Part shown: one piece after another, positions 1 to 50,659 of the stretch
How the letters are laid out: every line of letters begins with the position of its first letter
How positions within the stretch are numbered: position 1 is the stretch's first letter
DNA from: a virus
IMG/VR virus record: IMGVR_UViG_3300027771_001853
Coordinates: 186,001 to 250,000 of that record
Length of the DNA: 64,000 nt
Strand: one strand, 5' to 3'
Made by a program: the position numbers and the translations under genes
Notes under the pieces: model-generated
Told to the model about the DNA's origin: nothing
Database searches by the model: none
Seen by the model: only the letters and a program-made list of their open reading frames with translations

Positions 1-1540
1 CCTGTGCGTATGGGTTTGTTGATGGAACAGACACACATTGGTTTGCCAAGGTATTCGGTGGAGTACCGGTTTCATGATAAAAGCTGCCCCAGGTTACATT
101 AATGGGGATATTCCCATTTATTTGTTCATCCATTAAATATTCACACGCTCCAATAATGGAGATAGAAGCATGTGGTTTTAGGGTTAAACTATCACAGGAG
201 GAACCATTAGTGATAGTTGCTAATGGTGGTGTTATGCATTCGTACCACACTGTAGTTGTAGTTGTTGTTAGTGGTCCGGTAGTGGTTGTTGTGGTTGGGG
301 TACTAGTAGTGGTTGTGGTTGTTTGACCAGGTAACGTGGTGGACGTGGTTGTTTGCCCTGGACAACAAGGTATACCATTAGCTGATATAAGTGCTATAGA
401 TAACGCATTACAACCTAGCATATTTATTAGTCCGTTTGATGTTAGGTCCGATTGGGTCTCCACCATATTAGCGACAGGTATACCAACAATAGGGTTACAT
501 AATGGTTTCCAACATTCATTTTGTACTATCCCACCTGACACTAATAAGTTTGGTATTTGGAAGGCATAATTATCATCACAATTAAGTGAATTAAGTAATA
601 GTAATAAATTACCTGTGGCCCCATATTGTACTGGTACACCAGTACCCACACAACAACTTTCTATCCCACATGTCACACAAGGGTCACCAGTAGTTGTAGT
701 GGTACAACAATTATAACATGTGGTTGTAGTTGTGGTTATAGGAGCTACTGTTGTGGTAGTAGTTGTTAGGGGTTGTATTCCAGTTGTAGTGATAGTGATA
801 ATAGGGCACTGTTGACAATCGACAACACTACCAAGTAGTCCTCTTGTTGGTGGTGTTCCAAAAGTGTTTCCACACTGTCCTCCAACATACCCAGTATGCC
901 AATCACCACTACCCGGATTATTACTTACATCTATATCATAACTGGTTGGTCTGGGACTGTCACCCTCATAGTACATACATGTACCATCAGATAATTGAAT
1001 AACATCACCCTGACTTATAGGCCCTATAGCAGCAGTTAACTGGTTATGGAATGCCTGATTATTTGTATCAGTATTTGGTAAAAAACATGAACCTAAAGGC
1101 GGGGCCCCTGGTGTAGGAACTACTGGTACTGGATTAAAAGCGAGTGAATTATCACAATAACGCCAAGAATGATTGAGTCCGAAAACGGATGGTTGGGTTT
1201 CACACGCATCACAATCACCATATGGTTCAATAAACCAACCAGAATTTTGTAAAGAATGACCACCAAGATATTCAACATGTATAGCTTCTGGTGTTGCGAA
1301 GTCCCCTATATACTCAAAACAAGTCCAAAATTGTGGATATGGAGTTGAGTATAGTCTAATAAAGTCCCCAGGTACTATTTGATGCCCTGCACTTTGTTGG
1401 TAATAATAATTCTGAAAATGTTCATTGTTAGCTATTGTATTTCCTGGAGGCGAACCGGATTTACCAATATTACAATCGAAAGGGACTGGTACACTAAAAG
1501 GTTCGCTAGTAAAACAAGCTCTATATTTTTTATATCCCAT
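1..1540 (-). CDS. Cys-rich, Thr-run adhesin/tail-fibre protein, C-terminus outside window
   Basis: An open frame runs from an ATG at 1540 (start MGYKKYRACF) to the left edge without a stop, so about 513 residues are visible and the C-terminus lies outside. I translated it by hand. It begins with a Cys-containing region with aromatic residues. It then has two Thr-rich stretches (about 240-355 and 665-800) built from runs such as PLTTTTTTVAP and GPLTTTTTTVWY. Between them lies a module beginning CGIESCC, which resembles the C-terminal modules of the neighbouring 4512-residue protein. The gene follows that protein by 35 nt and has a TATTTAT element 16 nt before its start. It is probably a virion surface or tail-fibre protein made of the same building blocks. 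No family was recognised. The reading frame is certain; the role is inferred from context. Confidence 0.8.
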   Translation of the reverse strand, partial: MGYKKYRACFTSEPFSVPVPFDCNIGKSGSPPGNTIANNEHFQNYYYQQSAGHQIVPGDFIRLYSTPYPQFWTCFEYIGDFATPEAIHVEYLGGHSLQNSGWFIEPYGDCDACETQPSVFGLNHSWRYCDNSLAFNPVPVVPTPGAPPLGSCFLPNTDTNNQAFHNQLTAAIGPISQGDVIQLSDGTCMYYEGDSPRPTSYDIDVSNNPGSGDWHTGYVGGQCGNTFGTPPTRGLLGSVVDCQQCPIITITTTGIQPLTTTTTTVAPITTTTTTCYNCCTTTTTGDPCVTCGIESCCVGTGVPVQYGATGNLLLLLNSLNCDDNYAFQIPNLLVSGGIVQNECWKPLCNPIVGIPVANMVETQSDLTSNGLINMLGCNALSIALISANGIPCCPGQTTTSTTLPGQTTTTTTSTPTTTTTTGPLTTTTTTVWYECITPPLATITNGSSCDSLTLKPHASISIIGACEYLMDEQINGNIPINVTWGSFYHETGTPPNTLANQCVSVPSTNPYAQ

Positions 1541-1575: not shown

Positions 1576-3120
1576 TTAAATAGGCGTACATGTAGTTGTC
1601 GTTGTTACTGGACAACATGGTATCCTTAGTGTCGGGTCTTGGTTCTGATAAGGTAACCAAGCTTGGAGACCAGCACACGGTGTTGGTGCTGGTGGTGATA
1701 GTAGTACGGCCCCTGTCACTGTTGGTCCGGTTGGGCTATTTATTATTCTTGCACAAACCGGTACACCACTGATAATAAATAAGTGTGAGGAACCTAAACT
1801 TAAACCATTTATATCAGTAAGTAGTGTTCCAATTGCTACGTATTGTTGGAATACTCCGTTCGTATCAGAACAACACTCTTCCAAACCTCTACCAGTTACA
1901 TTTACAGTTGTTGTTGTTGTGGTTGGGCAACACCCGACTGATTGTCCTTTGTCTTCACATGTGTCACACTGGTCTGTCAACCCGGCTGGCCAAATAGGGA
2001 ATAAGAATGTACCACTAATTGTCCCTACAATAGGTGCACAACCAACACATTTATGGAAACAACAAGCCATACCGTCAAATTGACCACCACTAACCACCAA
2101 TCTAAAGGTATCGTCATTGTTCAATCCAGCAACTCCAGATACAGCACCAGGGTCACCTACTAATTCATAAACATCCCCAGTACAACAATGCTTTACATAT
2201 TGTACTTCTTGGGTTGTAGTGGTTGTGGTGGTTGGTAGTGGGGCACAACACCCTAATGGGAGTGCTTGGTCTAAGGTATAACAATCACTATACACTATTC
2301 CTGGTGTAGTAAAAGTTGATACCGACAAACCAATAGGGTTATTTATAACTTTAAAACATCCCCTTATAATGAGTCCAGTAGTATCTACCAATTGGGTACT
2401 AAACGCTTGACCAACGATTAGACCATTAAGATACACTTCAAATGCTCCTAACGCTACATATTGGTCAAATGCCCCAGTTACTGGGTCCATACAACAAGAC
2501 TCAACACCTATTGTACCACCTATTGTAGTTGTGGTAGTACAGGGAGCTTCCTCATCAAGTACACATATATTACAAGGGTCCTGATAAACAAGAGATGAGT
2601 AGATATTAACTGGTGTTATGGAAACAGCTACACCTGGACCACTCACGTTTGAGACGAACTCCCAACACCCTTCTTGAAGTGAGAATGGTGCTGTAATAAT
2701 ATTACCATATACTACGTCACCTAATATTAAATTACTGTTTAACCAAGTTAATATCACACCTGTAGCTATATACTCATCATAAGGTGGACAACATTGTCTA
2801 ACACCTAAGGTTGGGGATGGTGTTGTAGTAGTTGTGGATACCGGTATTGTAGTTGTCGTTGTTACTGGACAACACAAAGTGTAATTGGTATTTGTATTTA
2901 ATTCTGCACATGATGATGATACAAAAGAAGGTGCAAACATATTAGTTTGTATTATACCAACCGGGTTATTTATTATTTTCCAACAACCAGTATAATCGGA
3001 TGGCATTATAGTACTATAAAACGCGTCACCCAAATTCATCCCCGCTAGAATCGTATAGAGTGTCCCTGCGGCTACAAATTGTAAGGTAGGGTCGCAACAA
3101 TTTTCTAAACCTAATGGGCC
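1576..3120 (-). repeat. Five diverged Cys-Cys modules at C-terminus of giant adhesin
   Basis: Five units of about 90-110 residues each begin near a CC pair (GLENCC, GVRQCC, GVESCC, YVKHCC, GLEECC). Most contain a Cys followed by a hydrophobic pattern like CWKIINNPVG, and each ends in a Cys followed by a Thr run. A sixth related unit (GIESCC) lies in the next gene at about 380-660. They are protein-level repeats; the DNA has diverged. Confidence 0.6.
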
Positions 3121-6100
3121 AGAAGATGTGGTAGTTGTAGTTACTGGTCCTGTTGTGGTTGTTGTGGTTGGTGGTACCGTGGTTGTTGTTGTTGTTGGAC
3201 AACTACAAGGTTGGTACATTTCTCTACAAATCATACAAGCGTAAGGATAATCCGTTGTCCAAACATCATCTATGTTATTTAAAGTTAACATAGGTGCTCC
3301 CACTACTGGTTCGTAGGTATGGATAGCTTCGTCAACAATAGTAAGACACATATTAGGACATGGTGTGTGTATAGTATCTATTGGTACTATACTTGGGTTA
3401 CCTGTGGTACCACTAACTAAACTAGGTATGTCGTATACGGTATTATAATACACTTGATTTTTATTACAACATAGGTTTTCCCCCCAATATGGGTTAGTTG
3501 GGTCATAACAACATGTTAATAGTCCGTATGTCGTACAACAACCAGTATGACTTGTACCTGAATAATTGTAACATGGGTCTTGTTTATCAACGTTACGAGG
3601 ATTTACCGATATAGGTCCTATTTGGTTGTCTATATATTCCCATACTGTCTGTCCTAAATCCCATGCTGGGTTACTTGCCGGTATAGACGTGTTAACAATA
3701 GTTGAAGCTGTGGCTATTTGGTATGGGTTGTTACCACCAACACAGTTAATATTATCACACCATTGTACTACCCACGATGCTATTTCAAGTGGTGGTATAT
3801 TCACATATTGGAATGGAACTATCTGGTAGTGTCCAATACCAGGTGCGTTATTTTGATTTACGTAGATATAATCAGGTGCACTACCTCCTTGTATTTCATC
3901 TAAACAGTACGTACCATCGGCTGATGTTAAACATACATCATCCTCTACACTTGTAGATGTACCAGTGTAAAATATTTCTAAGTGAGAAACACCAGATAAA
4001 CAGAAACAATCTGCACACCTTTTCGTTGTAGTGGTTGTAGTTGAGGGACAAGGGACAGACCAACTAAAATTAGTCTCCGTACAACCTGAACATATACAAG
4101 GTGGGTCCCCTGCCGCGACACTATTAGTACACCAAAACTGATATGTAAATCCAGCCGGAACTACTGGTGCTGACGGTTCACTTGGAACAACAACATAACA
4201 CCCAGGAACCCCGTTAATTGTACCCAAAAGTCCTTGACCTACTAATATGTCGGTTTGGTCATTTGGATACGATAATATCGTATTACAATCAGCTGTTAAT
4301 GAGAACACATACTCTTCACAACAAGCAGATAACGCGAAAGGTAGACATACGGTAGTAGTGGTTGTAGTACAAGGAATCTCACACGCGGCACAACTATAAA
4401 GTGGTATAGGTGGGTAATTTATACTAATTATTGGGCCCTGTTCTCTACCTATTGTTTCCCAACATTCATTTGTAAGAGTATCGTAGAAAGCATTATAAGA
4501 AGTTAAACCTGAAGCTGGATTAGTTAAATCACCACACCACCTAGCAAACACAATATTATTTGTTTTACAACAAGCTGATAAACCTTGACATGTTGTGGTT
4601 GTTGTGGTTGGTGGGACTGTTGAGGTTGTTGTAGTAGCTGACCATGCTGTTGTTGTGGTTGTTGTTGGTGGGACTGTGGTTGTCGTACATACAATATGGT
4701 GGGTATCTAAACATCCACCAATAGAAAAACAATCTTGGTAGAATATACTTGGCACTACACTTATATTGTAAAGGTCCGGTCCTGGTATTTCTATTCTCTC
4801 ATAACACATATTAGTCCCCACATCATAAAACACTTGACCGATAGGCATAAAACTTAAATCTGTTTTAGTACAACCAGAACAAGTTTCATTAGTGGTTGTA
4901 AACTTTCTAACAGGTCTAATATATTTTGGGCTACCTTGTATAATATTATTATTTATGTCTGGGTAAGGTATGAGAGATTTACTATGTAATTCTGAACTAA
5001 ATAACTCAGGGAATATGGAGTCTCTACCCGAACATGGTGTACCTGTAGGGTAGTTAGGTCCATTAGACATACCTAAACTTAAATGTATATTATTAAACCC
5101 ATTAAACATTGGGAAGTATTCCGCCCTACTGGCATCACATTCACTAGAAGTCCAGTAATACCCACCTTCAGCAAAATTATATGTAGAGTAAAAAGTTTCG
5201 TTTGGTGGTCCTGCGGCTAGAGGGTTTTCTAAACCAATAGTTTGACCCCCAGTAGAACCAACAAGTCCATTATACATTTCATTCATTTCTTTAATGGTAG
5301 GTAAGTACCAATCTGTGTATCCACTAAATGAGAATGTAGAACATATGTGAGCTGCACTATGAAGAGTTATATTAGAAGCGTCTAAATTACTTCCAGGGTT
5401 TGGCCAAACACTATTACCTATGTATTCTTTTGTACAATCCAAATAACCACCACCAGCATCAGCCTTTTTATCTTTACAATCATATGTAAAAGGTACTGTA
5501 TTACCACTACAAGGGTTTGTTCTAGCCCAATTAACATCAGTAGTACATGAAGGACAACACGGGTAACCGTAAATGTCTGGTGTACAAGCATTATTTATTT
5601 TTGATGTGTTGTCACTACCCGCGAATATTTCTCTTGAAGTTCCACTAACATAAAGGTTCATACATCCCCACATTGTAAATGTATGTGCTGAATCAGTCGC
5701 GTTTGCGGCTATTATATTTTGGGGTAAATCATAGTTAGATAAATTTACATCATATGGTGAAGCTTCCAAATAATTCCCTTGACCATCATGATAGAAGACA
5801 ACACCACCCGCTGGTCCCGTATCACCTATACTATATGTTTGTCCAGTTAAACAACAACAAGGTTTAATACCATAACAAATATGAGGACGAGTAGTAGTTG
5901 TTGTGGTAGGTCTATTAGTTGTTGTGGTGGTTGTTTTTGGTGGGTCCCATATTGTTGTAGTAGTTGTAACACAATCATCTACTATCTTATGAGTTATCTC
6001 ACAACACTCACAATCATCATAAGGTCCATTTAGTGGTACATTGACGTTATAATTTGTTGGTCCTGGGTACGCTATTCTTTCATAACATTGTCCAGATAAT

Positions 6101-9100
6101 GGGTCAAACCATGTATTACCTATTGGTACAGTAGATAAATCAGTAGTTGTATATCCAGAACAAGTTGCGTAATTATATGACCTAACAGGTCTTAACCACA
6201 TAAATAGGAAATTCTTCTGCAGTACCTGCATTGTTGTACCCCACGTAGTTGGGAGTCCAATAGCAATTGTATCGTATACTGGGTTGGCTGGATGTTCACT
6301 AGAAGTAATCCATATTGGTGGTTGGTCTGTTGAACCTGAAAAAGGTTTTAAGTCGTCTAAGTCGGCTAAATTATACAATGGAGATAATAGAGCTTGTCCT
6401 GGACCTATATTAAACCATAATTTTAACCATTCGTTATAACTTGGAGCAAACCAATCATCATACCCGTTATAAATTAAAGTGTCGAGATACGTTGCCCATG
6501 GGGTTGGGTCTGGACACCCAGCAGCAATAATCTCATTTGTATTTATTTTTCCCATACCAATTGAAGTACCTAGAGTTGGGCTCGGAAGTACAGGTGTGCC
6601 CCAACAACCCCATCTCATACCAAAACCACCAATTTCTGTTGATTTAGGTGCTACTTCATATATGATGTTATTAATCGTATCAACATGAAATACAAATCCT
6701 CCGGCTTGACCTACATCACCAACATTAGGAACAACACCAATTATAACGTCATCTTCACAACAACAAGGTTTTAACCCCCATATTTCACTTGGTCTTGTTG
6801 TAGTAGTGGTAACAGGTTCACAAATAATTTCATTAATTTGCTCACAAGCATCACAATCTATATAAGGACCTCCAGGATTTGGTACTGGAGCGGTAAAATC
6901 AAAATATGTTAGTCCTGGGTCAGCAATATGAGTAAAGCATTCACCTGACGTAGCGTCATACCAAGTTCCACCTATAGGGATTGCTGATAAATCTGTATAT
7001 GTAAAACCAGAACAACCAGTATCGTTTATACGTTCTGGCATACAATTCGCACCATTAGGGTAATCATCATTACAACAACAAGAATTAAGACCCATATTTG
7101 TAGTAGTATCATCCCAAGTTATACCTTTGTTAGTTAAACTTCCACCCCACCCTGAATTTGGATTTGTGTCACAATCTGAACAAGTGGTTCCGTTAGTTGA
7201 ATTCGTTACAGTACATACTAAATTAGAATAGAAGTCAGGAGTACCTTGACCCATATATCTTAGACAAGTACACGTCATACCTGGTATTCTTGAAGGCCCC
7301 AACCCTGACGGACCATTAGTGTAGGTTATATTGTCATTCCAGTAACACCATCTAACGGTTTCACCCACAGATGGACTTCCAAGATATTGATAGAAATCTA
7401 GATTGTTCGCTAAATAATCGACAGATGGGACAGTACTAGTATTTGTAACACCATCATAACAAGCGTCACCAATGTAGTTTGGTGTACCGAAATATTCGAT
7501 GCCCCATGTTTTGTTGACTGTCCCCAGAATGGAGGCTATATTAGGTATGTAGTCAGAAATTTCATTCCAACAAACCTCAAATAGGTGAGATACTGGAGCA
7601 GTGGATTTGGTGATGGTGGTGGTAGTGGTAAGGGTAGGAGATTGTGATAGTGACGATTCAAGGTTTTGGAACCTAGAAAATAACGGTACCACACCAACAT
7701 CAGTAGATATATTTAGTTTTTGTCCAAGGCATCTAGCTTCACCTGATTCGTATTTAACTTGGTCTACAATATCTAGAATTTCTATAGATTGGTGTCCATA
7801 GGCGTTATCCTGATACAAATTGATAAAGTCACCAATCTTAAGTGCGTTTACCGATGTTCCATCATTTCTAACAAAATTAGATAGGGGACCACCTCCTGAT
7901 GCTAATTGTTGTGTTGTGGTTGTGGTTGTTTGTCCAAATAAGGTAGTGGTTGTTGTTGTTGGTATAGCGTATGTTGTAGTAGTTGTTGTTGGTATAGCGT
8001 ATGTTGTAGTAGTTGTTGTTGGTATAGCGTATGTTGTAGTAGTTGTTAGTTGCCCAAATACTGTTGTTGTAGTTGTAATTGGGGGTATAGTGTATGTTGT
8101 AGTAGTTGTAGTTGGAGGTATAGCGTATGTTGTTGTAGTTGTAGTTGGCGGTATAGCGTATGTTGTTGTTGGTGTTGTAGTTGGGGGTGTAAATGCCTTT
8201 TTGTCTATATAAGTGCATGAAGTAGTATCACTTTTTGTAACATATTGGTCACCATCTTTTGTCCATACTTTAACTAAATAAGCTAGACCATTAACATTTA
8301 TATCTTCCCAACCTACCTTATTAACCCCCCCATTAGTAGGTTCGTAATATAGAACTGTTGGTGCGGTGGTAATTAGTTTAGTTTTTTCAGGTGAGGTTAT
8401 TTGACCGAAAATATCTCTAGTATCACCAATAAATTGTGGTACCTGTTGTAACATACTTAAACTTTGTAAATCTTCACACACACAACACTCATTATTAGTA
8501 CCTCCGGTTGATAGTCCGTTAACACCAAAATGCCACCAATTACCAACTGGGTAGTATGGGACCGCTGATGAAGATACTGTTCCCATATATTTTAAACATA
8601 GTACATCATTATTAAAACCATTTAAAGTGGAGTGTAGGGTAACTACTTGACCTACACCTGGACTACCAACCCAACTATAAAAGTAATTACCTCTAGTTAC
8701 CATATCATCTAACCCAACTGCTGTCATAAAGTCTATAAGTCCTGATGTTGTTCCCGGGGCGTCAATAGCTGATATGCCCACACCAGGTGGGAATGGTGAT
8801 GAAGTGGGTGATGGTAAAAAAGAAAATAGTTCACATTCCTCAAACACGTGAAAAGTACGTATCTCCGCTAATCCACCATCACAACTATAACAATCATTAT
8901 GTGTTGATAATACGGTAGCGGTACCAACAGGACAAATATCGTAATTAACGCTTAAAGGGCCCCATATTCTATTACCTACATAAGCAATCCAGTAGTCACA
9001 AAATATAGCCATCAATATACCGAAATTACTACAATTACCTAGGGCGAATATTGGGTCGTTAGGGTATGACCAAGTATAAACACCCAAATATTTAATGCAA

Positions 9101-12100
9101 TTTGTAAATGTTCCTAGTGCTATACCTGAATCTGGGCAGGCGACTGTCCACTCCATTTCTACAGTTATCACTTCTCCAGGGTTTGGGCTACCTAGATGAT
9201 TATAAAAATTTTGATTATTTAATGAATATTCTTGTACTGCGGCTAAGTCTTGACCAAGGTATGCACTATCAACGTACCCTGTCTGAGAATCAAGCCATAC
9301 TGGAGCAAATTTAGGGTACCCATTCAGTTGTGGTATAGAAGGGTCACCTGGACAATCCTCAAACATATGTAATGTAACATCCACATTTGCGTTTGCGTTT
9401 AATGGTATAGTTGGTAAGGGAGTGCTGTTTGGTAAAGGGTTTAGGTTAACATAGTCTCCCAAGGTCACAGTCGTCTTAGGTTTACTATAGTGGGTACCTT
9501 CCGGCATTATCGGTTGGTATGTCCTTGTATCAGCTGACGGACAACAACATCTTTCTACCCCATAAATTTGTCTAAAAGTGGTACTAGTTGTTGTTGTTGT
9601 TCTAAATATCTTGGTTGTAGTTGTGGTTGTTGGTGCACAATATGGGTCTTCACCATCTCCATTAGCCATACATTCAACACAGTTATCAATACCAAAAAGA
9701 CCTAGTGGGTTTAAGGTTATCCCATTGGGTGGAAGAGGGTTAGGTGTCACTATAACCTTATAACACGCCTTATGGTCTATGTCATTAAATGTCTCACCAA
9801 TAGCCAAACCACTAACTGAACCAGGGTTATCCACAATCCATTGTTCTGCTGTTGAACCAGTGATACAACACTCTTCTACTGTAATACCTGAAGTACATGC
9901 TGTATGAAAACATACTGTCGCTGATAATGTAGCTATACCAATATTATTAGCTTGTGTAGTCCCTAACCAATTAGATAGTAAGTATTCGTGACTATGTACT
10001 GATATAAAACCAAAATGTGTTAACCCACTTACACACCTACCATCAGGTGTTTTACCTGGACCGTAACCAGAATTCCAAAAACAAGCATCCGCACAATAAG
10101 GGTTTGTTTGTTTTATAGCATCAAAATTATATAGACCACCACCATTATTTGCGGCACCAATATCTACAAAGTCCACCGCGGGAACTACTCTACCTTCAAC
10201 AGCTCCATACGCATTTAATTGAGTAATCCTTTCCTGTTGGGTATCATTTACTGGTAATGTGTAAACAAAACTATTAAATGAACCATTATTACCTGGAGTA
10301 CCAGTAGGTTGGTCCCAAACACCATTATAGTATGTACCCATAAAAGAATCAAAATCTCTTAAGTAATTTTCTGTTGGTGTTATTTTCTGTAACCCAGATG
10401 TTACATTAATACTGTTGAGTTGGTTGGTATTCCAATCAGTACAGGGTACTGGTGGTGTTATAACACCAACGCCACTTGGAGCATTACATACCGGTAACCA
10501 TGGACTATCGTTATACCAAGGTTCAGTTTCATTGACAAAAGAAATAACCACAGCATTAGGGTCATTTAGAGCCGCGGCTATTGGCATATCAAGTCCAGAC
10601 CCACATACACCTTGTGGAACACTTATCCCAACTGGGGTTGGTATAAATGCATTTGTACCTTCCCATGGGTATCGTGAATACCTTAACCAAGATTCAGATT
10701 GTTGTTGTGGTGGTGGTACTGTAGCCTGATATAAACACCCAGTATAACCAGGTAATGTTTGAATAAATTGTTGCCACCAAGGTAGAACCACATTATTAGC
10801 TAATTGAGCTACACTAACAGCAAAACTACCACTCCCATCATAAAACACATAAAAATTAGTACCAGAAAATATACATGGACATTCACTAGGTGGTGTAGGT
10901 GGGCATTCACATTCACACGATACTAGAAGTGTGGTTGTGGTTGTTGTTGGTGGTGCGGGTGTAGTAGTTGTAGTTGTTGGTGGCCCAAGTGTTGTCGTAG
11001 ACGTGGTAGTAGATGGGGCACACGGGTCTGTAGTTGTTGTTGTCGATACAGGTACTGTAGTTGTTGTGGTTGTGGGACAAGGATTGTCCGGTGTCTCACA
11101 AAAACTACCAGCACATTCTAAACCAGCTAACGCTGTTACTCCAGATATACTACCTAATATAGTATTAGTTATAGGTCCTGAAGGTAATGTATATTTTGTT
11201 AAAACTAGGTTATCTGTCGCTCCAGAACAACACGTATTTTCTCCCCAACTAATTTCAATATCGTTACCATGACTGGAGCCTGGGGCGTAATCGGATAGGT
11301 CAATTGGACTACCAGCTGGTATTGGGTTTTTGAAAAAGAAACAGTATGTGTGTTCCATTAGTGGAGTTGGTGTAAGTGCTGGAGCACCAGCAATACAAGG
11401 TGCCGCCCCACCACGACACCTACCACCACCTGCACCAGCACTAATTGGTGGTGTCGCATCACAAATAGCAACAGGGAATCCAGGTCCTGTTGGGTACCTA
11501 ACTAATTCATATTTCCAACTTCCTATAATTGTACCAGAACCGTCAGGATGTCTAACCGTGAAGTTCCAATTATTAGTACTAGCGGTAAAATTATCCCCGT
11601 TAAAAACTTGACCTGATTGGGCTGAGTCATACATCAATACTTTCATATACTCTGCACCCATTACTTGGTCTTTGAATGTCCCCACCCCTGGTAGGTTACC
11701 GTTTGTACCTACATCAAATACCCCTTGTGTTACAATTTCTCCTGGTGTAGTCATACCCCCATCTTTCCATATCTCAGCATATTCTGGTTGACATGGTGTA
11801 CCCATTCCACCAAATTGTAAAGTTATTTCAAATTGAGATGGTTCACCTACCATTACACCTAAACCTATATTAGCTGGATTTTCAAGATATAAAATATTTG
11901 CACAATTCCCAGCAGGAGAATTAGGCCATTGGCCACATTGGGCTACACCTGCCTGATACCAATCTCTATTACCGGTACAATTTTGATGCTGAAGAGTACC
12001 TTCACCACAAGGTGAAGGTGTTGTAGGCATACATGATGGAACACCAGGAAAATTACCATCCATTACAATATTATAGTCCCATTGTCCTATGTTAGTGTTA

Positions 12101-15100
12101 GTAAATGGGTCGTATACCGTTAAAGTTAGTGGGTTGGTTGTGTCCCCAGTTAACATATCCATACTTACAAAATTCCCATCTTTGTCAAGTACGTTTAAAC
12201 TTAACTTAAGTGATTCAGCCCCTATTATTGGTCCAAACAATGGAGCAGCTCCTTGAATATTTCCGGGAGCACATGACCAAGGGGTGGGAATAGTAAAGGC
12301 ACATTGACCAGATATAATCAGACTTTCGTCAATCCACGTATGTTGGAACTGTTGTGGTGTACCCCCCGAACAACTAGGTAGTTGTCTTACAATGTAAAGG
12401 TCTTCACAATCATATAGTAAACCAGCGGAAATACTACTATTAAGTAATGGGTTTATAGTCCCAGGTATTGGATTGGCGTTTAATGTTGTACCATCAAAAA
12501 TACACACATAACCAGCTGATGAATTACAATTTCCTGGACCAAAAGAACATTCATCCAAATAAGTATAAAAATTGTTAGTTCCTGGTACGTTAGATAACCC
12601 ACTCATATGAGCATATGGGTTAGGTGGACTTGTAAATACGGTAAAATCACCCAAATAAGTTACACTACCATTAACCCATGGTTGTATCTGATATACCGGA
12701 TGAACAGTATTATTATAAGGAATAAAAATTAATTTATCATTTAAGCTATCATAACCTAAACAACCTTCACCTAACTCCTCAGTTCTTATACCACTTGTGT
12801 TATTACACACATCATAACCAGTATAAGTTTGAGCTAAAGACCCACTACCTGTGTTAGGGTTTACTTGGTATATGTGTAAGTCGTATCTAGATGTACCATT
12901 ACAAGTATCATCTATTTTATGTTCTAAAAATGCCCCATATAAAAAGTTATTTGTTGTTCTTTTAGCGAACCCTTGGAAGAACATATGTGGTATAGCTCCC
13001 CACATTGTTGGGTCTTTTAAAGCAATAGGTAACGTGGTTTGGGTGTGGGGTGAAGTTTTATGTATCGAATAAAAACCATTATTTCCTGTGGTTCCCGTAT
13101 TGATTATCTCCCAAGCTCCTGTAATTAAGCAACACTCATCACAACACGGTATCGTTGTCGTTGTTGTTGACGCGTAAGGGTCTGGTGTTGTCGTACTAGT
13201 AACGCAATCACCAGTAAGTGGTATAGTACCAAAATCACATGGGTCTGGTGTTGTAGTTGTTGTGGTTGGTGGTACCGTGGTTGTTGTTGTTGTTGGACAA
13301 TCACCAGTTAACGGGATTGTACCAAAATCACATGGGTCAAGTGTTGTTGTAGTTGTTGTTTGACCAGGTAACGTGGTTGTAGTTGTTGTTTGACCAGGTA
13401 ACGTGGTTGTAGTTGTTGTTTGGCCAGGTAATGTAGTTGTAGTTGTAAAACCTAAAATTGTTGTGGTGGTAGTAACACACTCACACTGACCATCAGTCAC
13501 CAAAAAGTCGTTCGCTAAAGGTGGGATGCCGTCATAGATAGTTGTTAATGTACTCCCAGTACCAACTAATAGATAATTGTTTGCTCCAATATCCCTAATA
13601 AGGCTCCACCAGTTATTAGATATCGGTAGTGACCCCCAAGGGTTTTGTTTTATTAATATACCGTGTGTTAATATACTATTAGAAGGGTTACTAATGTGGT
13701 TATATATGTACGGTGAAGTCACATCATTACAATAAGAACCTTCTAACATATCACCAGGATACGTTACACCAGATAATACACCTTGGAAATACTCTACAGG
13801 GTAAATACACACACATTCTGTAGTGGTGGTTGTGGTTGTTGGTTCTGGTGGGATATAAGTCGTTGTTGTTGTGGTAGAAGGGCATTCAGCTGTAATATAC
13901 TCAGTATACGAACAACCGTCTGGTGCTAACACTTCCACACAATACGTTTTACAACATTCTAAAGTCAAATCAAAACAAGTGGTACTTGCTGTACACCAAC
14001 CAAAATGTGGAGCTGTACATCCTGACACGTACATTATTTGGCAATTGGTACAATCTGAATCACATAAAGATATTGTAGAGTTTGTAAAATCTGGAGAAAC
14101 ATCTATACTATACTCTTCTGTACAAAGTGTTGTGGTAGTTGTAACAACAGGTTCTATAATCTCAAACCCAAACATTTTATGATTGTAATTAGGTACGTAT
14201 GTTGTTTGTGTTGACGCTGTTTGGGGTACCACCTCCCAGTTATAGGTTTGTGGGTCTATTTTAGCTAACCCATTGTAGGATAGAAAGTAAAATTTATCAT
14301 CATACTCATCGTAGGTTAAGTCACCAACCCACGCTCTTCCACCAAATGGTATATTACGACCCGCTTGGTTATTAATAACATATGAAACATGTGCTGAACA
14401 ATAACTTAATACTGTGTTAACCCCATTGTTTGTGTTTATGTGTTGGAATGTTAGACCACTTGTCATCCCACTGATATAGCCTACCGCGTATAACTCACTC
14501 TGTCTATACGCTAAACCAAGACCACTATTTAAAAAACAGGTAGTCCCAGAATAAAATGGTTGTTGTGGTGTTGCATTTGGATGACTAACACTCCAAGTGT
14601 GTAAATATAAATCACCAACAGCTGGGTAAACCCATGAACCCATACCACCCATTGTCATATCAACCCCTTGCATGTTTGTACACCTTAATAAGGTAAAACA
14701 ATCGTTTGCTTCATCATAAGCAAATCCACCAACTAAAGGTTGCCACCCATGGTTATCGTAAGGTAATGTTAATGTAAGCCCCGAATATATTGTTTTGGTC
14801 CTACCTCCCCAGTCTTGGTCTGTTTTGAAGATTTGTCCTGGTAATTGCCAAGAACTTATGGAACCATTTTCACCAGCGAACCCATAAAGTTTTTTATTCT
14901 TTTGGGTCATTCCATAGTATGGGTCCATATTAAAAAATGGACCAGAGTACGAAGATTCTGGAGATTCTGTGATACCCGCTTCGTTCCTAGGTATTAATGG
15001 TGGTGGTGAACCTACGGGGGCTAAATTCCACTCATATAAATCATACTTCCATATGTTAGGTCCAGAAATTGAACCTTGTTGTATAGTATAAGCGGAGAAA

Positions 15101-15114
15101 TTTGGTGAAGGCAT
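1576..15114 (-). CDS. Giant 4512-residue modular, mucin-like tail adhesin
   Basis: One uninterrupted frame of 4512 codons. Residues about 1-330 look like a beta-propeller-type repeat (motifs such as GGFAYDEANDCF and GDLTYDEYDDKFYFLSYN). The rest alternates Cys-rich modules with linkers of five to seven Thr, more than 40 such runs. Recognisable parts are a second propeller-like region near residues 700-900, a VWA-like domain with a DGSGS MIDAS motif near residue 1425, two DUF1566/C-type-lectin-like domains near 2800-2980 and 3095-3400 (GGVVFYHDGQG, then WYLPTIKEM, YYWTSSE and RPVRKF), and five related CC-containing modules at the C-terminus. No signal peptide or membrane segment is visible. 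It sits between other Cys-rich proteins and is most likely a virion fibre or adhesin that binds the host surface. Thr runs use mixed ACA, ACT and ACC codons. The function is inferred; the frame is unambiguous. Confidence 0.85.
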   Translation of the reverse strand: MPSPNFSAYTIQQGSISGPNIWKYDLYEWNLAPVGSPPPLIPRNEAGITESPESSYSGPFFNMDPYYGMTQKNKKLYGFAGENGSISSWQLPGQIFKTDQDWGGRTKTIYSGLTLTLPYDNHGWQPLVGGFAYDEANDCFTLLRCTNMQGVDMTMGGMGSWVYPAVGDLYLHTWSVSHPNATPQQPFYSGTTCFLNSGLGLAYRQSELYAVGYISGMTSGLTFQHINTNNGVNTVLSYCSAHVSYVINNQAGRNIPFGGRAWVGDLTYDEYDDKFYFLSYNGLAKIDPQTYNWEVVPQTASTQTTYVPNYNHKMFGFEIIEPVVTTTTTLCTEEYSIDVSPDFTNSTISLCDSDCTNCQIMYVSGCTAPHFGWCTASTTCFDLTLECCKTYCVEVLAPDGCSYTEYITAECPSTTTTTTYIPPEPTTTTTTTECVCIYPVEYFQGVLSGVTYPGDMLEGSYCNDVTSPYIYNHISNPSNSILTHGILIKQNPWGSLPISNNWWSLIRDIGANNYLLVGTGSTLTTIYDGIPPLANDFLVTDGQCECVTTTTTILGFTTTTTLPGQTTTTTTLPGQTTTTTTLPGQTTTTTTLDPCDFGTIPLTGDCPTTTTTTVPPTTTTTTPDPCDFGTIPLTGDCVTSTTTPDPYASTTTTTIPCCDECCLITGAWEIINTGTTGNNGFYSIHKTSPHTQTTLPIALKDPTMWGAIPHMFFQGFAKRTTNNFLYGAFLEHKIDDTCNGTSRYDLHIYQVNPNTGSGSLAQTYTGYDVCNNTSGIRTEELGEGCLGYDSLNDKLIFIPYNNTVHPVYQIQPWVNGSVTYLGDFTVFTSPPNPYAHMSGLSNVPGTNNFYTYLDECSFGPGNCNSSAGYVCIFDGTTLNANPIPGTINPLLNSSISAGLLYDCEDLYIVRQLPSCSGGTPQQFQHTWIDESLIISGQCAFTIPTPWSCAPGNIQGAAPLFGPIIGAESLKLSLNVLDKDGNFVSMDMLTGDTTNPLTLTVYDPFTNTNIGQWDYNIVMDGNFPGVPSCMPTTPSPCGEGTLQHQNCTGNRDWYQAGVAQCGQWPNSPAGNCANILYLENPANIGLGVMVGEPSQFEITLQFGGMGTPCQPEYAEIWKDGGMTTPGEIVTQGVFDVGTNGNLPGVGTFKDQVMGAEYMKVLMYDSAQSGQVFNGDNFTASTNNWNFTVRHPDGSGTIIGSWKYELVRYPTGPGFPVAICDATPPISAGAGGGRCRGGAAPCIAGAPALTPTPLMEHTYCFFFKNPIPAGSPIDLSDYAPGSSHGNDIEISWGENTCCSGATDNLVLTKYTLPSGPITNTILGSISGVTALAGLECAGSFCETPDNPCPTTTTTTVPVSTTTTTDPCAPSTTTSTTTLGPPTTTTTTPAPPTTTTTTLLVSCECECPPTPPSECPCIFSGTNFYVFYDGSGSFAVSVAQLANNVVLPWWQQFIQTLPGYTGCLYQATVPPPQQQSESWLRYSRYPWEGTNAFIPTPVGISVPQGVCGSGLDMPIAAALNDPNAVVISFVNETEPWYNDSPWLPVCNAPSGVGVITPPVPCTDWNTNQLNSINVTSGLQKITPTENYLRDFDSFMGTYYNGVWDQPTGTPGNNGSFNSFVYTLPVNDTQQERITQLNAYGAVEGRVVPAVDFVDIGAANNGGGLYNFDAIKQTNPYCADACFWNSGYGPGKTPDGRCVSGLTHFGFISVHSHEYLLSNWLGTTQANNIGIATLSATVCFHTACTSGITVEECCITGSTAEQWIVDNPGSVSGLAIGETFNDIDHKACYKVIVTPNPLPPNGITLNPLGLFGIDNCVECMANGDGEDPYCAPTTTTTTKIFRTTTTTSTTFRQIYGVERCCCPSADTRTYQPIMPEGTHYSKPKTTVTLGDYVNLNPLPNSTPLPTIPLNANANVDVTLHMFEDCPGDPSIPQLNGYPKFAPVWLDSQTGYVDSAYLGQDLAAVQEYSLNNQNFYNHLGSPNPGEVITVEMEWTVACPDSGIALGTFTNCIKYLGVYTWSYPNDPIFALGNCSNFGILMAIFCDYWIAYVGNRIWGPLSVNYDICPVGTATVLSTHNDCYSCDGGLAEIRTFHVFEECELFSFLPSPTSSPFPPGVGISAIDAPGTTSGLIDFMTAVGLDDMVTRGNYFYSWVGSPGVGQVVTLHSTLNGFNNDVLCLKYMGTVSSSAVPYYPVGNWWHFGVNGLSTGGTNNECCVCEDLQSLSMLQQVPQFIGDTRDIFGQITSPEKTKLITTAPTVLYYEPTNGGVNKVGWEDINVNGLAYLVKVWTKDGDQYVTKSDTTSCTYIDKKAFTPPTTTPTTTYAIPPTTTTTTYAIPPTTTTTTYTIPPITTTTTVFGQLTTTTTYAIPTTTTTTYAIPTTTTTTYAIPTTTTTTLFGQTTTTTTQQLASGGGPLSNFVRNDGTSVNALKIGDFINLYQDNAYGHQSIEILDIVDQVKYESGEARCLGQKLNISTDVGVVPLFSRFQNLESSLSQSPTLTTTTTITKSTAPVSHLFEVCWNEISDYIPNIASILGTVNKTWGIEYFGTPNYIGDACYDGVTNTSTVPSVDYLANNLDFYQYLGSPSVGETVRWCYWNDNITYTNGPSGLGPSRIPGMTCTCLRYMGQGTPDFYSNLVCTVTNSTNGTTCSDCDTNPNSGWGGSLTNKGITWDDTTTNMGLNSCCCNDDYPNGANCMPERINDTGCSGFTYTDLSAIPIGGTWYDATSGECFTHIADPGLTYFDFTAPVPNPGGPYIDCDACEQINEIICEPVTTTTTRPSEIWGLKPCCCEDDVIIGVVPNVGDVGQAGGFVFHVDTINNIIYEVAPKSTEIGGFGMRWGCWGTPVLPSPTLGTSIGMGKINTNEIIAAGCPDPTPWATYLDTLIYNGYDDWFAPSYNEWLKLWFNIGPGQALLSPLYNLADLDDLKPFSGSTDQPPIWITSSEHPANPVYDTIAIGLPTTWGTTMQVLQKNFLFMWLRPVRSYNYATCSGYTTTDLSTVPIGNTWFDPLSGQCYERIAYPGPTNYNVNVPLNGPYDDCECCEITHKIVDDCVTTTTTIWDPPKTTTTTTNRPTTTTTTRPHICYGIKPCCCLTGQTYSIGDTGPAGGVVFYHDGQGNYLEASPYDVNLSNYDLPQNIIAANATDSAHTFTMWGCMNLYVSGTSREIFAGSDNTSKINNACTPDIYGYPCCPSCTTDVNWARTNPCSGNTVPFTYDCKDKKADAGGGYLDCTKEYIGNSVWPNPGSNLDASNITLHSAAHICSTFSFSGYTDWYLPTIKEMNEMYNGLVGSTGGQTIGLENPLAAGPPNETFYSTYNFAEGGYYWTSSECDASRAEYFPMFNGFNNIHLSLGMSNGPNYPTGTPCSGRDSIFPELFSSELHSKSLIPYPDINNNIIQGSPKYIRPVRKFTTTNETCSGCTKTDLSFMPIGQVFYDVGTNMCYERIEIPGPDLYNISVVPSIFYQDCFSIGGCLDTHHIVCTTTTVPPTTTTTTAWSATTTTSTVPPTTTTTTCQGLSACCKTNNIVFARWCGDLTNPASGLTSYNAFYDTLTNECWETIGREQGPIISINYPPIPLYSCAACEIPCTTTTTTVCLPFALSACCEEYVFSLTADCNTILSYPNDQTDILVGQGLLGTINGVPGCYVVVPSEPSAPVVPAGFTYQFWCTNSVAAGDPPCICSGCTETNFSWSVPCPSTTTTTTKRCADCFCLSGVSHLEIFYTGTSTSVEDDVCLTSADGTYCLDEIQGGSAPDYIYVNQNNAPGIGHYQIVPFQYVNIPPLEIASWVVQWCDNINCVGGNNPYQIATASTIVNTSIPASNPAWDLGQTVWEYIDNQIGPISVNPRNVDKQDPCYNYSGTSHTGCCTTYGLLTCCYDPTNPYWGENLCCNKNQVYYNTVYDIPSLVSGTTGNPSIVPIDTIHTPCPNMCLTIVDEAIHTYEPVVGAPMLTLNNIDDVWTTDYPYACMICREMYQPCSCPTTTTTTVPPTTTTTTGPVTTTTTSSGPLGLENCCDPTLQFVAAGTLYTILAGMNLGDAFYSTIMPSDYTGCWKIINNPVGIIQTNMFAPSFVSSSCAELNTNTNYTLCCPVTTTTTIPVSTTTTTPSPTLGVRQCCPPYDEYIATGVILTWLNSNLILGDVVYGNIITAPFSLQEGCWEFVSNVSGPGVAVSITPVNIYSSLVYQDPCNICVLDEEAPCTTTTTIGGTIGVESCCMDPVTGAFDQYVALGAFEVYLNGLIVGQAFSTQLVDTTGLIIRGCFKVINNPIGLSVSTFTTPGIVYSDCYTLDQALPLGCCAPLPTTTTTTTQEVQYVKHCCTGDVYELVGDPGAVSGVAGLNNDDTFRLVVSGGQFDGMACCFHKCVGCAPIVGTISGTFLFPIWPAGLTDQCDTCEDKGQSVGCCPTTTTTTVNVTGRGLEECCSDTNGVFQQYVAIGTLLTDINGLSLGSSHLFIISGVPVCARIINSPTGPTVTGAVLLSPPAPTPCAGLQAWLPYQNQDPTLRIPCCPVTTTTTCTPI
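7961..8050 (-). repeat. 30-bp tandem repeat, three copies, Thr-run linker
   Basis: Three consecutive 30-bp units (7961-7990, 7991-8020, 8021-8050). The first two are identical and the third differs near its end. Each encodes a Tyr-Ala-Ile-Pro spacer plus six Thr. Positioned in frame, so copy changes alter linker length by 10 residues. Confidence 0.85.
8083..8186 (-). repeat. Imperfect 33-bp tandem repeats, Thr-run linker
   Basis: Three related units of about 33 bp (8083-8115, 8116-8148, 8149-8186) continue the same linker. They encode a Pro-Pro-containing spacer plus Thr runs. Third-base variation between copies shows some age. Confidence 0.7.
13361..13450 (-). repeat. 30-bp tandem repeat, three copies, Thr-run linker
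   Basis: Units at 13361-13390 and 13391-13420 are identical; the third (13421-13450) is diverged. Each encodes a Leu-Pro-Gly-Gln spacer plus six Thr. Nearby, at about 13201-13247 and 13294-13340, two copies of a Cys-Asp-Phe-Gly module are also nearly the same. Confidence 0.85.
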
Positions 15115-15131
15115 ATAATTAAAATATTAAA

Positions 15132-15974
15132 TTATGAACATGCTCCTGAGTAGGTCACACCGTTAGTTATTCCACTATACACAGATATATAAGTTCCTAC
15201 CAGAGTGGCACCGGTAAGTAGTCTAACTGGGGTAAATGTAGTACCAGAAGTACTGGAAGCATAGACTTCCCAACCATAAACACCCGTAGTTAAAAGAGAG
15301 TATTTCAAATGACTATCCCAATAATTTTCTTTTGTTAACCCGGAGGACGAGTAACTAGAAAAAGGGTAACTATACTCAAGAGTGAATCCTGTTGAGATTA
15401 CGTGGTCCCTGAAAGTCCCAGCTGTAGTTGTAACACCACTTAGACAAACGGACTGTAAACAGTACGCTGTATTAGATTCACAAGCTGTGTTATAAGCTAT
15501 CGAATCAGTAAATTTAAAGAAAGGACCTGTATTATCTGTAGTAGCTGAAACCACTTGTACCGTACCAAACATATCCGTTTTATAATATTTTCCATTTGTT
15601 AACCCAGGAGCGTTTACAGCTCTACCAATTAGATTTGTATTTCCTGATGTACTTTGTGGGGATATAACTCCTTGTACCATAACATTGTATGGGTTATAGG
15701 TGCACCCGGTCCCACCAAAAATTGTAGTGGCGGTTAAACAACAAGTACCACTGAAACAATCACAGTTTTCACACTCTGGATGTGGTACGGAAATAGTCTT
15801 TATGCAGTAGTCTTCACCACAAGGAATACACATTGGAAAACATACATTTCCAAATACGTCACCAGGACCTGTCTGTCCCGAATAAACGCAATTAGTACAA
15901 CCAGATTGGCACAAATATACATCATAAGGTGCACTACTTCCGGTTATATAAAAATTGATACAATTTTGAGCCAT
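15132..15974 (-). CDS. Cys-rich virion protein, unknown
   Basis: A 280-residue protein whose first 95 residues are packed with cysteines (CQSGCTNCVYSG, CIPCGEDYC, CENCDCFSGTCC). This part resembles a module near residues 330-390 of the giant neighbour, which also has a CxxCxxC pattern (CDSDCTNC). The second half is Ser/Thr/Gly/Tyr-rich and looks like beta-structure, as in phage fibre proteins. It has no Thr runs. It lies between two Thr-run proteins, 17 nt before the giant gene, and has a TATTTATA element 17 nt before its own start. That fits a late-expressed structural gene. No known family was recognised. Confidence 0.75.
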   Translation of the reverse strand: MAQNCINFYITGSSAPYDVYLCQSGCTNCVYSGQTGPGDVFGNVCFPMCIPCGEDYCIKTISVPHPECENCDCFSGTCCLTATTIFGGTGCTYNPYNVMVQGVISPQSTSGNTNLIGRAVNAPGLTNGKYYKTDMFGTVQVVSATTDNTGPFFKFTDSIAYNTACESNTAYCLQSVCLSGVTTTAGTFRDHVISTGFTLEYSYPFSSYSSSGLTKENYWDSHLKYSLLTTGVYGWEVYASSTSGTTFTPVRLLTGATLVGTYISVYSGITNGVTYSGACS

Positions 15975-15991
15975 ATTATTATAATTATTCT

Positions 15992-15998
15992 ATAAATA
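15992..15998 (-). promoter_or_regulatory. TATTTAT late-promoter-like element
   Basis: TATTTAT on the minus strand, followed by A, 17 nt before the ATG at 15974. Confidence 0.45.
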
Positions 15999-16035
15999 TA
16001 TTACCATCTATTATTACTTGTAATTTCATGATTAA

Positions 16036-17235
16036 TTATTGATTACAAGTTGCACAATTGATAAACTGGTTAGATAATGTATTACCATCAATAATCCTCA
16101 AGGTAGATACATCTGGTACACACGGTTCCACTGTTGTTCTATAACACCCACTATATGTTAGCGAGCCATTAGGGTCATATGTACCATTAGTTAACCCAGA
16201 GAAACTATAATACCCACCATCTACTAATAGTGGTGACGCACATGGTCGTATCAAAGATAGAAACCAAGCGTTCGCATTACAATCAGATATACCATAACAA
16301 ACGGGTGGGTTACAAGTTGTTGTAGTTGTTGTTGGTACTGGTATTGTGGTAGTTGTGGTTGTTGGTGCCGTGTATGTTGTTGTCGTTGTTGTTGGTTCTG
16401 GTATTGTGGTAGTGCTTGTGGTAGTTTCACATGGTTCGTCATCAATTATCGGTGGGCAACATAAACATTCTGGTTCTGAAACAAAAACAGTGTATGATGT
16501 TTTTATAAATCCACCACAGTCTTGGTTTGTTTTTTGTATACTAGTACTAAAAGTGTAGATTCCTGTTCCGTAATTGTAGTCATTTTCTATTTTACTCTTA
16601 ATCCAATCAGGTATGTTAGTATTGGGTGACCAAGTAAACCCACTAGACTCCCAACAAGTACCAGCACTAAAGTGACCAGTATATATGTCAGTAACCTCAC
16701 TAAGACTACATTCACAATTATCAGCATTTAATAATTGTGTATCCGGAGATAATTCCCAATAATAAGGGTAACCACAACCAGACCAACAGATTTCTACCTT
16801 ATCTGCGTTTCTTTTTAAAGAATTGGTCCAACCGTTATCCATCCCCGTTAACCCTATATCACAGATGGATGTGATAAATCCACCCATTTCTGTACACCCA
16901 GAGGTATAACAATCAACCCCACAATCTATACAATCCAAATCTTTTGCTGATGGTGTTGCGTGACACCAACATGTACCACTTATACTCAATATTGTATTGT
17001 TAGGGTAAAATGTACCACATTCCATAGTCAATTGCAATGAAGAGGACGGGTTACCTAAGTCTATCCAGACGGGTAAAACCTCACAATCATCGTAACCAAT
17101 GATATTTTTAGAGTATAAAACTTCCGTGTTAATATCCCTTTCATCAGCTACTAAGAAAAAATCATAGTAGGATGTGTAGTCTAATTTAGCGTCTAATCTA
17201 TTAAAATAATAATTCTTTAAATTCTGTGGTCCCAT
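16036..17235 (-). CDS. Cys-rich protein with Thr-run linker, tail-associated
   Basis: A 399-residue protein. Residues about 1-270 are Cys- and Trp-rich, with pairs and clusters such as CIDCGVDCYTSGC and CLCCPP. A Pro-Thr linker of four Thr blocks follows (pattern PEPTTTTTTYTAP, coding at about 16315-16440). After it comes a C-terminal module starting CYGISDCNANAW, of the type seen after linkers in the giant neighbour. It is the first gene of the minus-strand fibre cluster. A TATTTAT element lies 5 nt before its ATG, in a 50-nt divergent spacer shared with the plus-strand gene at 17286. It is probably a tail-fibre or adhesin component. No family was recognised. Confidence 0.75.
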   Translation of the reverse strand: MGPQNLKNYYFNRLDAKLDYTSYYDFFLVADERDINTEVLYSKNIIGYDDCEVLPVWIDLGNPSSSLQLTMECGTFYPNNTILSISGTCWCHATPSAKDLDCIDCGVDCYTSGCTEMGGFITSICDIGLTGMDNGWTNSLKRNADKVEICWSGCGYPYYWELSPDTQLLNADNCECSLSEVTDIYTGHFSAGTCWESSGFTWSPNTNIPDWIKSKIENDYNYGTGIYTFSTSIQKTNQDCGGFIKTSYTVFVSEPECLCCPPIIDDEPCETTTSTTTIPEPTTTTTTYTAPTTTTTTIPVPTTTTTTCNPPVCYGISDCNANAWFLSLIRPCASPLLVDGGYYSFSGLTNGTYDPNGSLTYSGCYRTTVEPCVPDVSTLRIIDGNTLSNQFINCATCNQ

Positions 17236-17240
17236 TATTC

Positions 17241-17247
17241 ATAAATA
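17241..17247 (-). promoter_or_regulatory. TATTTAT element, divergent spacer
   Basis: TATTTAT on the minus strand, only 5 nt before the ATG at 17235. The same 50-nt spacer holds the plus-strand copy at 17265-17271, so the spacer may drive both directions. Confidence 0.35.
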
Positions 17248-17264
17248 CTTATAGGTGTAGTTAA

Positions 17265-17271
17265 TATTTAT
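17265..17271 (+). promoter_or_regulatory. TATTTAT late-promoter-like element, plus strand
   Basis: TATTTAT 14 nt before the ATG at 17286. It is the only copy noted for a plus-strand gene. Confidence 0.4.
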
Positions 17272-17285
17272 AAGAAAAAGCAAAC

Positions 17286-17945
17286 ATGAAGAAATTAAAA
17301 CATAAAGGTGATTGTGAGACCACACATAATGGGAAAACCCACGATGAATGGGAGTTAGATGAGATAAATAAAGAAGAGGAAGAACTGGAAGAATTAGTAG
17401 ATTATGATGGTTCATTGATTGGTAGTAAGATACCTAATAACGTCAATGTCGCTAATATGACCAGTTCGAGTACTCTGGACCAAACAGTTGATAGGTCACG
17501 TCAAAGAGGTATGAGTTACGATTACTACTATAAACGATATTGGGGTGAAGCCTATTTAGGTAAACAGTTAGGTGCTGATAATGACGATGATGGCCTAATA
17601 AGTACCGATGGTTTAGGTTGGGATGATACCGTGGAAAAGTACGAAGATTTGGGTAAGACAACTAGAAAAGCTCAAGATAAGGCTGTGGAAATGGGTCAAA
17701 TACCGGATGAAGAGGACGTACAGATGATTAATGAAAAATCTAGACAGAGGATGAAGGATATGATTGAAATGATTTTATCTAAAAGAAATGGGGAAAACGA
17801 TTTAAGTGACCCTGTAGAACTCCATGACGTAAATCCTTTGGTTAAAAGAAAATTTAAAAGTCTTAAAAAAGCTATAGAAGCTGATGACCAAGACTTTATG
17901 GAAGTGATAAACAACTTAATGAAAGACGATAATGCCGGACATTAA
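17286..17945 (+). CDS. Acidic hypothetical protein, first of plus-strand island
   Basis: A 219-residue hydrophilic protein, rich in Asp, Glu and Lys and predicted to be mostly helical, with an acidic N-terminus (WELDEINKEEEELEELVDY) and a charged C-terminus. It has no transmembrane segment, signal peptide or enzyme motif I can recognise. It opens a run of five plus-strand genes in an otherwise minus-strand window. The next gene overlaps it by 14 nt. A TATTTAT element at 17265-17271 lies 14 nt before the ATG, suggesting late expression. The location between baseplate and fibre genes makes a virion or assembly role plausible, but that is only context. Confidence 0.7.
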   Translation: MKKLKHKGDCETTHNGKTHDEWELDEINKEEEELEELVDYDGSLIGSKIPNNVNVANMTSSSTLDQTVDRSRQRGMSYDYYYKRYWGEAYLGKQLGADNDDDGLISTDGLGWDDTVEKYEDLGKTTRKAQDKAVEMGQIPDEEDVQMINEKSRQRMKDMIEMILSKRNGENDLSDPVELHDVNPLVKRKFKSLKKAIEADDQDFMEVINNLMKDDNAGH

Positions 17946-18381
17946 TTTAGAAAATAAGACATTTACTTGTCCTGATAAATTAGTTAATAGAATTAAATCT
18001 TCTTTAAATGATTTTAACGGACCAAAAACAACGGAAGGTTACGTTCGTGCACAAAACATAGTTGATAGTCCCGTAATAAGTTTAGCTCTACTAAAAAAAA
18101 TAAATAATTTCTTTAGGAGTAATGACGAAAGTCATCCAGGTTACGAGTTAACTGGTGGTGATTTTGGTAAAAGTACTTTTTCTGAAATGGAGAGACAAAC
18201 TAGGGAGGGGGAATCTAGGGGTCGTAAAACAAAAATGAGGGGTGGTCTTGAGAATACACATAAAAAACCCCATGAAAGAGACGATAATGCAAATGTGACA
18301 GCGGTACACGTCCCAACGGTTGACAAGGCTAATAGACTTAGGGAAAGTATCGATGAAATAAAAAGATTAATAAATATTTAA
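17932..18381 (+). CDS. Hypothetical protein
   Basis: A 149-residue soluble, basic-to-neutral protein. The N-terminal half contains KLVNRIKSSLNDF and SLALLKKINNFF helices. The middle has a Gly- and Arg-rich region (REGESRGRKTKMRGG). The end is a helix, RLRESIDEIKRLINI. The start overlaps the preceding gene by 14 nt, indicating translational coupling, and the next gene starts 17 nt downstream. No known family was recognised. The island context and close packing support a real gene. Confidence 0.65.
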   Translation: MPDINLENKTFTCPDKLVNRIKSSLNDFNGPKTTEGYVRAQNIVDSPVISLALLKKINNFFRSNDESHPGYELTGGDFGKSTFSEMERQTREGESRGRKTKMRGGLENTHKKPHERDDNANVTAVHVPTVDKANRLRESIDEIKRLINI

Positions 18382-18397
18382 ATAAAAACAATTAAAA

Positions 18398-18721: not shown

Positions 18722-18735
18722 ACTAGTTAATTAAA

Positions 18736-19826: not shown

Positions 19827-19845
19827 GTAAGTTACCGACTATTTT
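19805..19845 (-). terminator. Intrinsic terminator at convergent junction
   Basis: On the minus strand an 8-bp stem (AAAATAGT pairing with ACTATTTT) encloses a smaller GGTAA/TTACC hairpin. It is followed by nine T residues (the A run at 19805-19813). It lies directly at the end of the minus-strand gene that stops at 19844. On the plus strand the T tail is only four long, so any termination there should be weaker. Found by eye; no folding energy was computed. Confidence 0.45.
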
Positions 19846-20632: not shown

Positions 20633-20633
20633 T

Positions 20634-22148: not shown

Positions 22149-22164
22149 TAAAATATCTTTAACT

Positions 22165-22171: not shown

Positions 22172-22172
22172 G

Positions 22173-24054: not shown

Positions 24055-24055
24055 A

Positions 24056-50643: not shown

Positions 50644-50659
50644 ATTTCTTTTATTTGAA

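Follow-up and report, generated by a model that had tools for sequence, protein, structure and literature searches.

Threonine runs of a tailed-phage gene array as probable acceptor sites of a phage-encoded O-glycosyltransferase of the phrog_4417 family

The threonine (Thr) runs in the proteins of a gene array of a large tailed phage are, with a probability of about 0.8, the acceptor sites of a dedicated phage O-glycosyltransferase of the family phrog_4417, and the array proteins would then be mucin-like structural proteins. Relatives of the enzyme are nearly always found beside Thr-run proteins, so the virion most likely bears its sugars on these runs. Enzyme and Thr-run proteins co-occur across distant phages; in Bacillota phages the runs stand as tags at the C-termini of capsid and tail proteins, in large aquatic phages as linkers inside the protein. 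The source record comprises 297,623 bases, and its positions 186001-250000 make up the window, the whole stretch of 64,000 nucleotides that was analysed; positions are those of the window unless the record or another locus is named. The features located in the window are collected in Table 1.

Table 1. Features of the Thr-run array within the window; residues refer to the 4512-aa protein.
Feature	Window positions	Strand	Residues	Basis or remark
1977-aa Thr-run gene (record 181607-187540), N-terminal quarter of 513 residues	2..1540	-		continues beyond the window edge
CC module in the 1977-aa protein, first of seven	353..688	-		HMM and alignment
4512-aa Thr-run protein	1576..15114	-		frame without stops; 43 runs of five or more Thr
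CC module, copy 5 of 5	1606..1905	-		HMM and alignment; model pLDDT 77.8
CC module, copy 4	1924..2211	-		HMM and alignment
CC module, copy 3	2233..2523	-		HMM and alignment
CC module, copy 2	2539..2820	-		HMM and alignment
CC module, copy 1	2863..3126	-		HMM and alignment
Lcl_C-like domain (PF07603)	5095..5406	-	3237-3340	below curated cut-off
Second linker cluster, YAIP-TTTTTT repeats	7912..8145	-	2324-2401	sequence
DGSGS-motif segment, von Willebrand A-like by eye	9631..10926	-	1397-1828	sequence reading
Densest linker stretch, (LPGQ)TTTTTT repeats	13249..13473	-	548-622	independent contig breaks here
280-aa gene between two Thr-run genes	15132..15974	-		free of Thr runs; clusters with module 330-413 of the 4512-aa protein
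399-aa Thr-run gene, first of the array	16036..17235	-		three T6 runs

The sequence-only reading had proposed a single frame of 4512 codons at 1576-15114. This frame is real and lies on the minus strand; a plus-strand reading of the interval was ruled out, since that strand is full of stops. More than 40 Thr runs, with linkers of five to seven residues, had been claimed as well, and the count bears this out, with 16 runs of T5, 25 of T6 and 2 of T7 besides two of T4 (cumulatively, 45 runs of at least four Thr, 43 of at least five, 27 of at least six and none longer than seven). Run length in this protein is tightly held. In 300 shuffles of the protein a mean of 0.23 and a maximum of 2 runs of at least five Thr were obtained, against the 43 observed. 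The codons within the runs are mixed as stated (ACA 140, ACT 55, ACC 46, ACG 11), and because all four ACN codons occur in varying order, it is the amino acid and not a DNA repeat that is kept. Proline directly precedes 19 of the 43 runs. The description of small Cys-rich modules stands for the cysteines, which make up 4.8% of the protein against a mean of 1.2% in other ORFs of at least 150 aa, but not for the size of every module, as the segments between runs measure from 74 to 693 aa.

Six Thr-run genes, encoding 1051, 640, 636, 1977, 4512 and 399 aa, occupy about 30 kb of the record (173497-203235), and no run of at least five Thr was found outside the array in any other ORF of at least 60 aa of the whole 298-kb record. 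The same linkers had been attributed to the two genes flanking the long frame; this is correct for the 399-aa gene, while the stretch at 1-1540 proved to be part of a larger gene and the gene directly upstream, of 280 aa, is free of Thr runs. In the window the array is adjoined by virion genes for the terminase large subunit, the portal and the major head protein, and an adhesin role of the 4512-aa protein is plausible. The 640-aa Thr-run protein (L018:7705-9627, minus strand, equal to record 177705-179627) contains the motifs TNNHV, DAALIEL and GDSGA, which recall serine proteases of the trypsin type, a likeness not recognised by Pfam.

A module of about 95 aa with a conserved CC...C...C...CC pattern, termed here the CC module, is present in 12 copies, five in the 4512-aa and seven in the 1977-aa protein. 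Its alignment was too variable for a scan of the collection, no CC module was found in the relatives, and the medium-confidence model of one copy gave no significant match in the PDB. The Lcl_C-like match remained sub-threshold, with an E-value of 4.7e-05 in the whole 4512-aa protein and of 6.8e-07 in the segment alone. Besides this and a weak BamB-like match, nothing was returned by Pfam or PHROGs for the array proteins, and none of the module folds was tied to a known binding fold. The 4512-aa protein had no match in PHROGs and none by tblastn, in three pieces, against 50,697 phage records; the 1977-aa protein had no tblastn match in cultured phages and no match in viral contigs. The earlier remark that no described phage family has this design is in keeping with these searches. 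A known tail-fibre or tailspike family was considered and rejected, since neither a PHROG or Pfam tail-fibre match nor a match to a cultured-phage protein was obtained. In the DGSGS-motif segment, for which Pfam gave no match, YDGSGSF resembles the von Willebrand A metal-binding motif.

The enzyme is encoded inside the array by a 323-aa gene at record 176682-177653, 8.3 kb left of the window, and is separated by 30 nt from the 1051-aa and by 52 nt from the 640-aa Thr-run gene. It is a full-length member of phrog_4417 (E 1.2e-65, residues 1-295 against profile positions 1-276 of 293), which PHROGs v4 annotates as "unknown function" and not as a glycosyltransferase. No fitting Pfam or NCBIfam model was found for it, and a sequence search against PDB chains returned nothing. 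Its structural model, built with 31 aligned sequences, reached a pLDDT of 94.5 and a pTM of 0.92, and in a fold search of the PDB GT-A glycosyltransferases came out on top with probability 1.00, headed by UGGT, GT6 and glycogenin and not by mucin-type GalNAc-transferases. The DxD aspartates D100 and D102 are invariant in the 31 sequences. A GT-A glycosyltransferase fold with a DxD pair is thus shown for the enzyme at the level of the predicted structure; the family itself was known, and what is newly given here is its fold and its predicted acceptor. A second glycosyltransferase gene, of phrog_7162 (E 9.4e-39, 49411-50808, minus strand), overlaps that of the major head protein (50753-52591) at the end of the latter, and its product may modify the capsid or lengthen glycans.

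Homologues of phrog_4417 were found in 74 phage records, in several of which they adjoin capsid or major tail genes, and in the first loci sampled every homologue had Thr runs in a neighbouring gene. In phage iLp84 the major capsid protein ends in VPTTTTTTTSK and the major tail protein in ETTTTTTTSK, and the ends TTTTTTTTTTHHD and TTTTTTTTTRHD are found on tail proteins of the Lactococcus phages 1706 and bIL285 (a prophage of the laboratory strain L. lactis IL1403). Counted over loci that are phylogenetically clustered and not independent, tagged genes lay on the same strand as the enzyme in 32 of 32 bacterial-genome loci and on the opposite strand in none, and runs of at least five Thr were found near the enzyme in 28 of 30 viral-contig loci and in 12 of 15 cultured phages. 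In the bacterial genomes the run was located at most 15 aa from the C-terminus in all 68 tagged ORFs. The viral-contig loci, from aquatic phages, had been reduced from 80 to 30 non-redundant ones at 85% identity; the run was in the directly following gene in 18 of them, and the two exceptions are L031, whose Thr-run gene is encoded on the other strand, and L054, cut off just past the enzyme. Of the 252 runs in the aquatic viral-contig loci 251 are internal, as in the 4512-aa protein.

The remaining three cultured phages (9183, 521B and LP65) carry Thr-rich tails of other patterns on the major tail protein or on an adjacent gene, and the two most divergent enzymes, those of 521B and LP65, are among them. 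The gene adjacent to the enzyme ends in TTVKP/TTVAP repeats in 521B (L367:14422-14964) and in TTTETQTQTQ repeats in LP65 (L368:19058-19940), so the acceptor motif may differ from one enzyme to another. For LP65 gp51, which adjoins the enzyme, the annotation gives a structural protein detected by 2-D gel and mass spectrometry. In the enzyme tree, the aquatic enzymes with internal linkers form one well-supported group with the source-phage enzyme at its base, the enzymes of Bacillota phages and prophages form another, and neither includes the enzyme of Chryseobacterium phage MA9V-3, which has Thr-run genes as immediate neighbours.

In the reverse direction, (ACN)7 hits were collected from viral contigs and scored as positive when they coded in frame for Thr within a gene of fair length. 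By this first scoring the enzyme was found in 7 of 35 records with in-frame Thr runs versus 2 of 45 others; in both exceptions the hit proved to be a Thr run in frame after all, within an ORF that was short or truncated, so that the count made after the fact is 9 of 37 versus 0 of 43. On a 77-kb viral contig (L126), T12-T17 tails are present at the C-termini of several genes and no phrog_4417 member is present, which points to a different enzyme family for these tails, or to none.

Gain and loss of the enzyme were followed in closely related phages. Among major tail proteins at least 90% identical to that of iLp84, those accompanied by the enzyme end in T7 or T9 and those without it have an ordinary end, and a Lactobacillus capsid protein ends in VLVPTTTTTTTSK with the enzyme versus VLIPKP without it. 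In a whole-record search of 14 phages with related major tail proteins the enzyme was present in 4 of 4 with runs and in 0 of 10 without (Fisher p 0.001, uncorrected for kinship). For the aquatic lineage a neighbouring RuvC-like gene was used as bait, and in full loci runs were found in 41 of 42 enzyme-positive and in 0 of 2 enzyme-negative cases; the two enzyme-negative records have no (ACN)6 at all. In the relatives, enzyme and runs are located at a structural gene. Its homologue in the source phage, the counterpart of the relatives' Thr-run gene, lies at 103-106 kb and is without runs; in this phage enzyme and runs are found together at 173-203 kb, away from the location used by the relatives.

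A mechanism can be proposed from these data. The array encodes Cys-rich modules joined by T5-T7 linkers, as read from the frames, together with an enzyme for which model, fold search and alignment show a GT-A fold and an invariant DxD pair. The enzyme would transfer a sugar from a nucleotide-sugar donor to Thr hydroxyls and so generate extended, glycan-coated linkers. Because the acceptors in the source phage are linkers, glycosylation there would yield extended arms, mucin-like and glycan-coated, that carry Cys-rich modules; the tags of Bacillota phages would place sugars on capsid and tail. The weakest step concerns the use of such arms, which might hold binding modules off the virion, shield the virion, or help to hold glycan-rich surfaces. 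It is also likely, with somewhat less confidence than for the acceptor assignment itself, that one dedicated Thr-run glycosylation system is common to phages of very different hosts. In it phrog_4417 would read a short Thr tag placed on any structural protein, either at the C-terminus of capsid and tail subunits or as repeated linkers by which giant virion proteins become phage mucins; the tag would come and go with its enzyme, and enzymes that have diverged would be paired with tags that differ too (T7; TTVKP; TQTQT).

The runs could instead be plain flexible or extended spacers that are never modified, with the glycosyltransferase acting elsewhere, for example on DNA or on glycans of the host surface. 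Many secreted proteins have domains connected by Thr/Pro linkers, and 28 of the 37 T7-bearing viral records, many of them short fragments, lack phrog_4417. A C-terminal tag, however, links nothing, yet it accompanies the enzyme in all the bacterial-genome loci; capsid and tail proteins that are otherwise nearly the same have the tag where the enzyme is present and lack it where it is not, and the enzyme is often encoded by the directly adjacent gene, so that unmodified spacers are unlikely. Host enzymes might also glycosylate the runs and the phage enzyme merely extend or cap the glycan, as many bacteria O-glycosylate proteins and the phrog_7162 gene at the major head protein indicates that several enzymes may cooperate. 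This is rendered quite unlikely by the joint gain and loss of tag and phage enzyme and by an association that spans phages of unrelated hosts; modification of the runs by the phage enzyme is favoured over both.

A different doubt concerns the long frame itself, which could in part be an assembly product, with separate Thr-run genes or repeat units joined via near-identical linkers. The interval 13406-25114 is 100% identical in an independent contig, which thus reproduces the frame start and the upstream genes, but this contig ends exactly within the Thr-linker repeats, at residue 569; the far part of the array is 99.99% identical in another contig, and a single assembly covers the middle of the 13.5-kb frame. 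The 4512 codons nevertheless stay open with consistent composition, and the other Thr-run genes of the array are built likewise, so that an artefact of this kind is very unlikely and the frame is taken as a single gene.

The comparison with known systems bears on two likenesses drawn from the sequence. The mucin-like one is strengthened by a glycosyltransferase in the array whose family co-occurs with Thr runs in Bacillota phages, Chryseobacterium phage and large aquatic phages. Eukaryotic mucins, with their PTS and Cys-rich domains, likewise have Cys-rich modules between Thr/Pro-rich stretches; in the array the O-glycosylation is predicted, the runs are just 5-7 Thr long, and Pfam found no mucin domain. 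The cellulosome-like one was not sustained: cellulosomal scaffoldins share Thr/Pro linkers between modules, but no cohesin, dockerin or carbohydrate-binding module was matched in the array proteins scanned. A closer functional parallel is found in mycobacteriophages Che8, Corndog and Myrna, whose glycosyltransferases, according to what is relayed of Freeman et al. 2023 in PMC12363180 and PMC12619734, modify virion proteins at the C-termini of capsid and tail-tube subunits and thereby affect antibody recognition. Both systems would have virion proteins as acceptors of phage glycosyltransferases, here predicted ones; the acceptors of the mycobacteriophages are C-terminal, as are the tags of the Bacillota relatives, whereas the runs of the source phage are internal linkers of other proteins. 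Capsid and tail proteins of Che8 have no Thr run, and its glycosyltransferases gp108, gp109 and gp110 gave no significant match to phrog_4417 family profiles; the mycobacteriophage system was therefore rejected on sequence as the parent family, and the present system works alike without being a member of it. No description linking Thr runs to a phage glycosyltransferase was found in the open-access literature, and an earlier account elsewhere is possible.

A widespread phage family of unknown function hereby gains a testable function, and a simple sequence sign is provided for glycosylated virions, including those of Lactococcus, Enterococcus, Lactobacillus and Staphylococcus phages. If the sign holds, virion glycosylation occurs in phages of very different hosts, and the array suggests the presence of mucin-like arms in some large aquatic phages. 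A tag that is short, transferable and supplied with its own enzyme could also serve glycobiology.

The source phage may be related to the moraphages, aquatic Bacteroidota jumbo phages with four core groups of putative glycosyltransferases (PMC12619734). Repeats of the form GCTDPxACNYDPxAxxDDGSC are common to two genes of the region (L018:9660-11570 and L018:155-1687, minus strand). In Enterococcus phage phiFL2A (L026:6001-6910) the enzyme gene is split over two frames, giving two matching pieces, and the tags are present.
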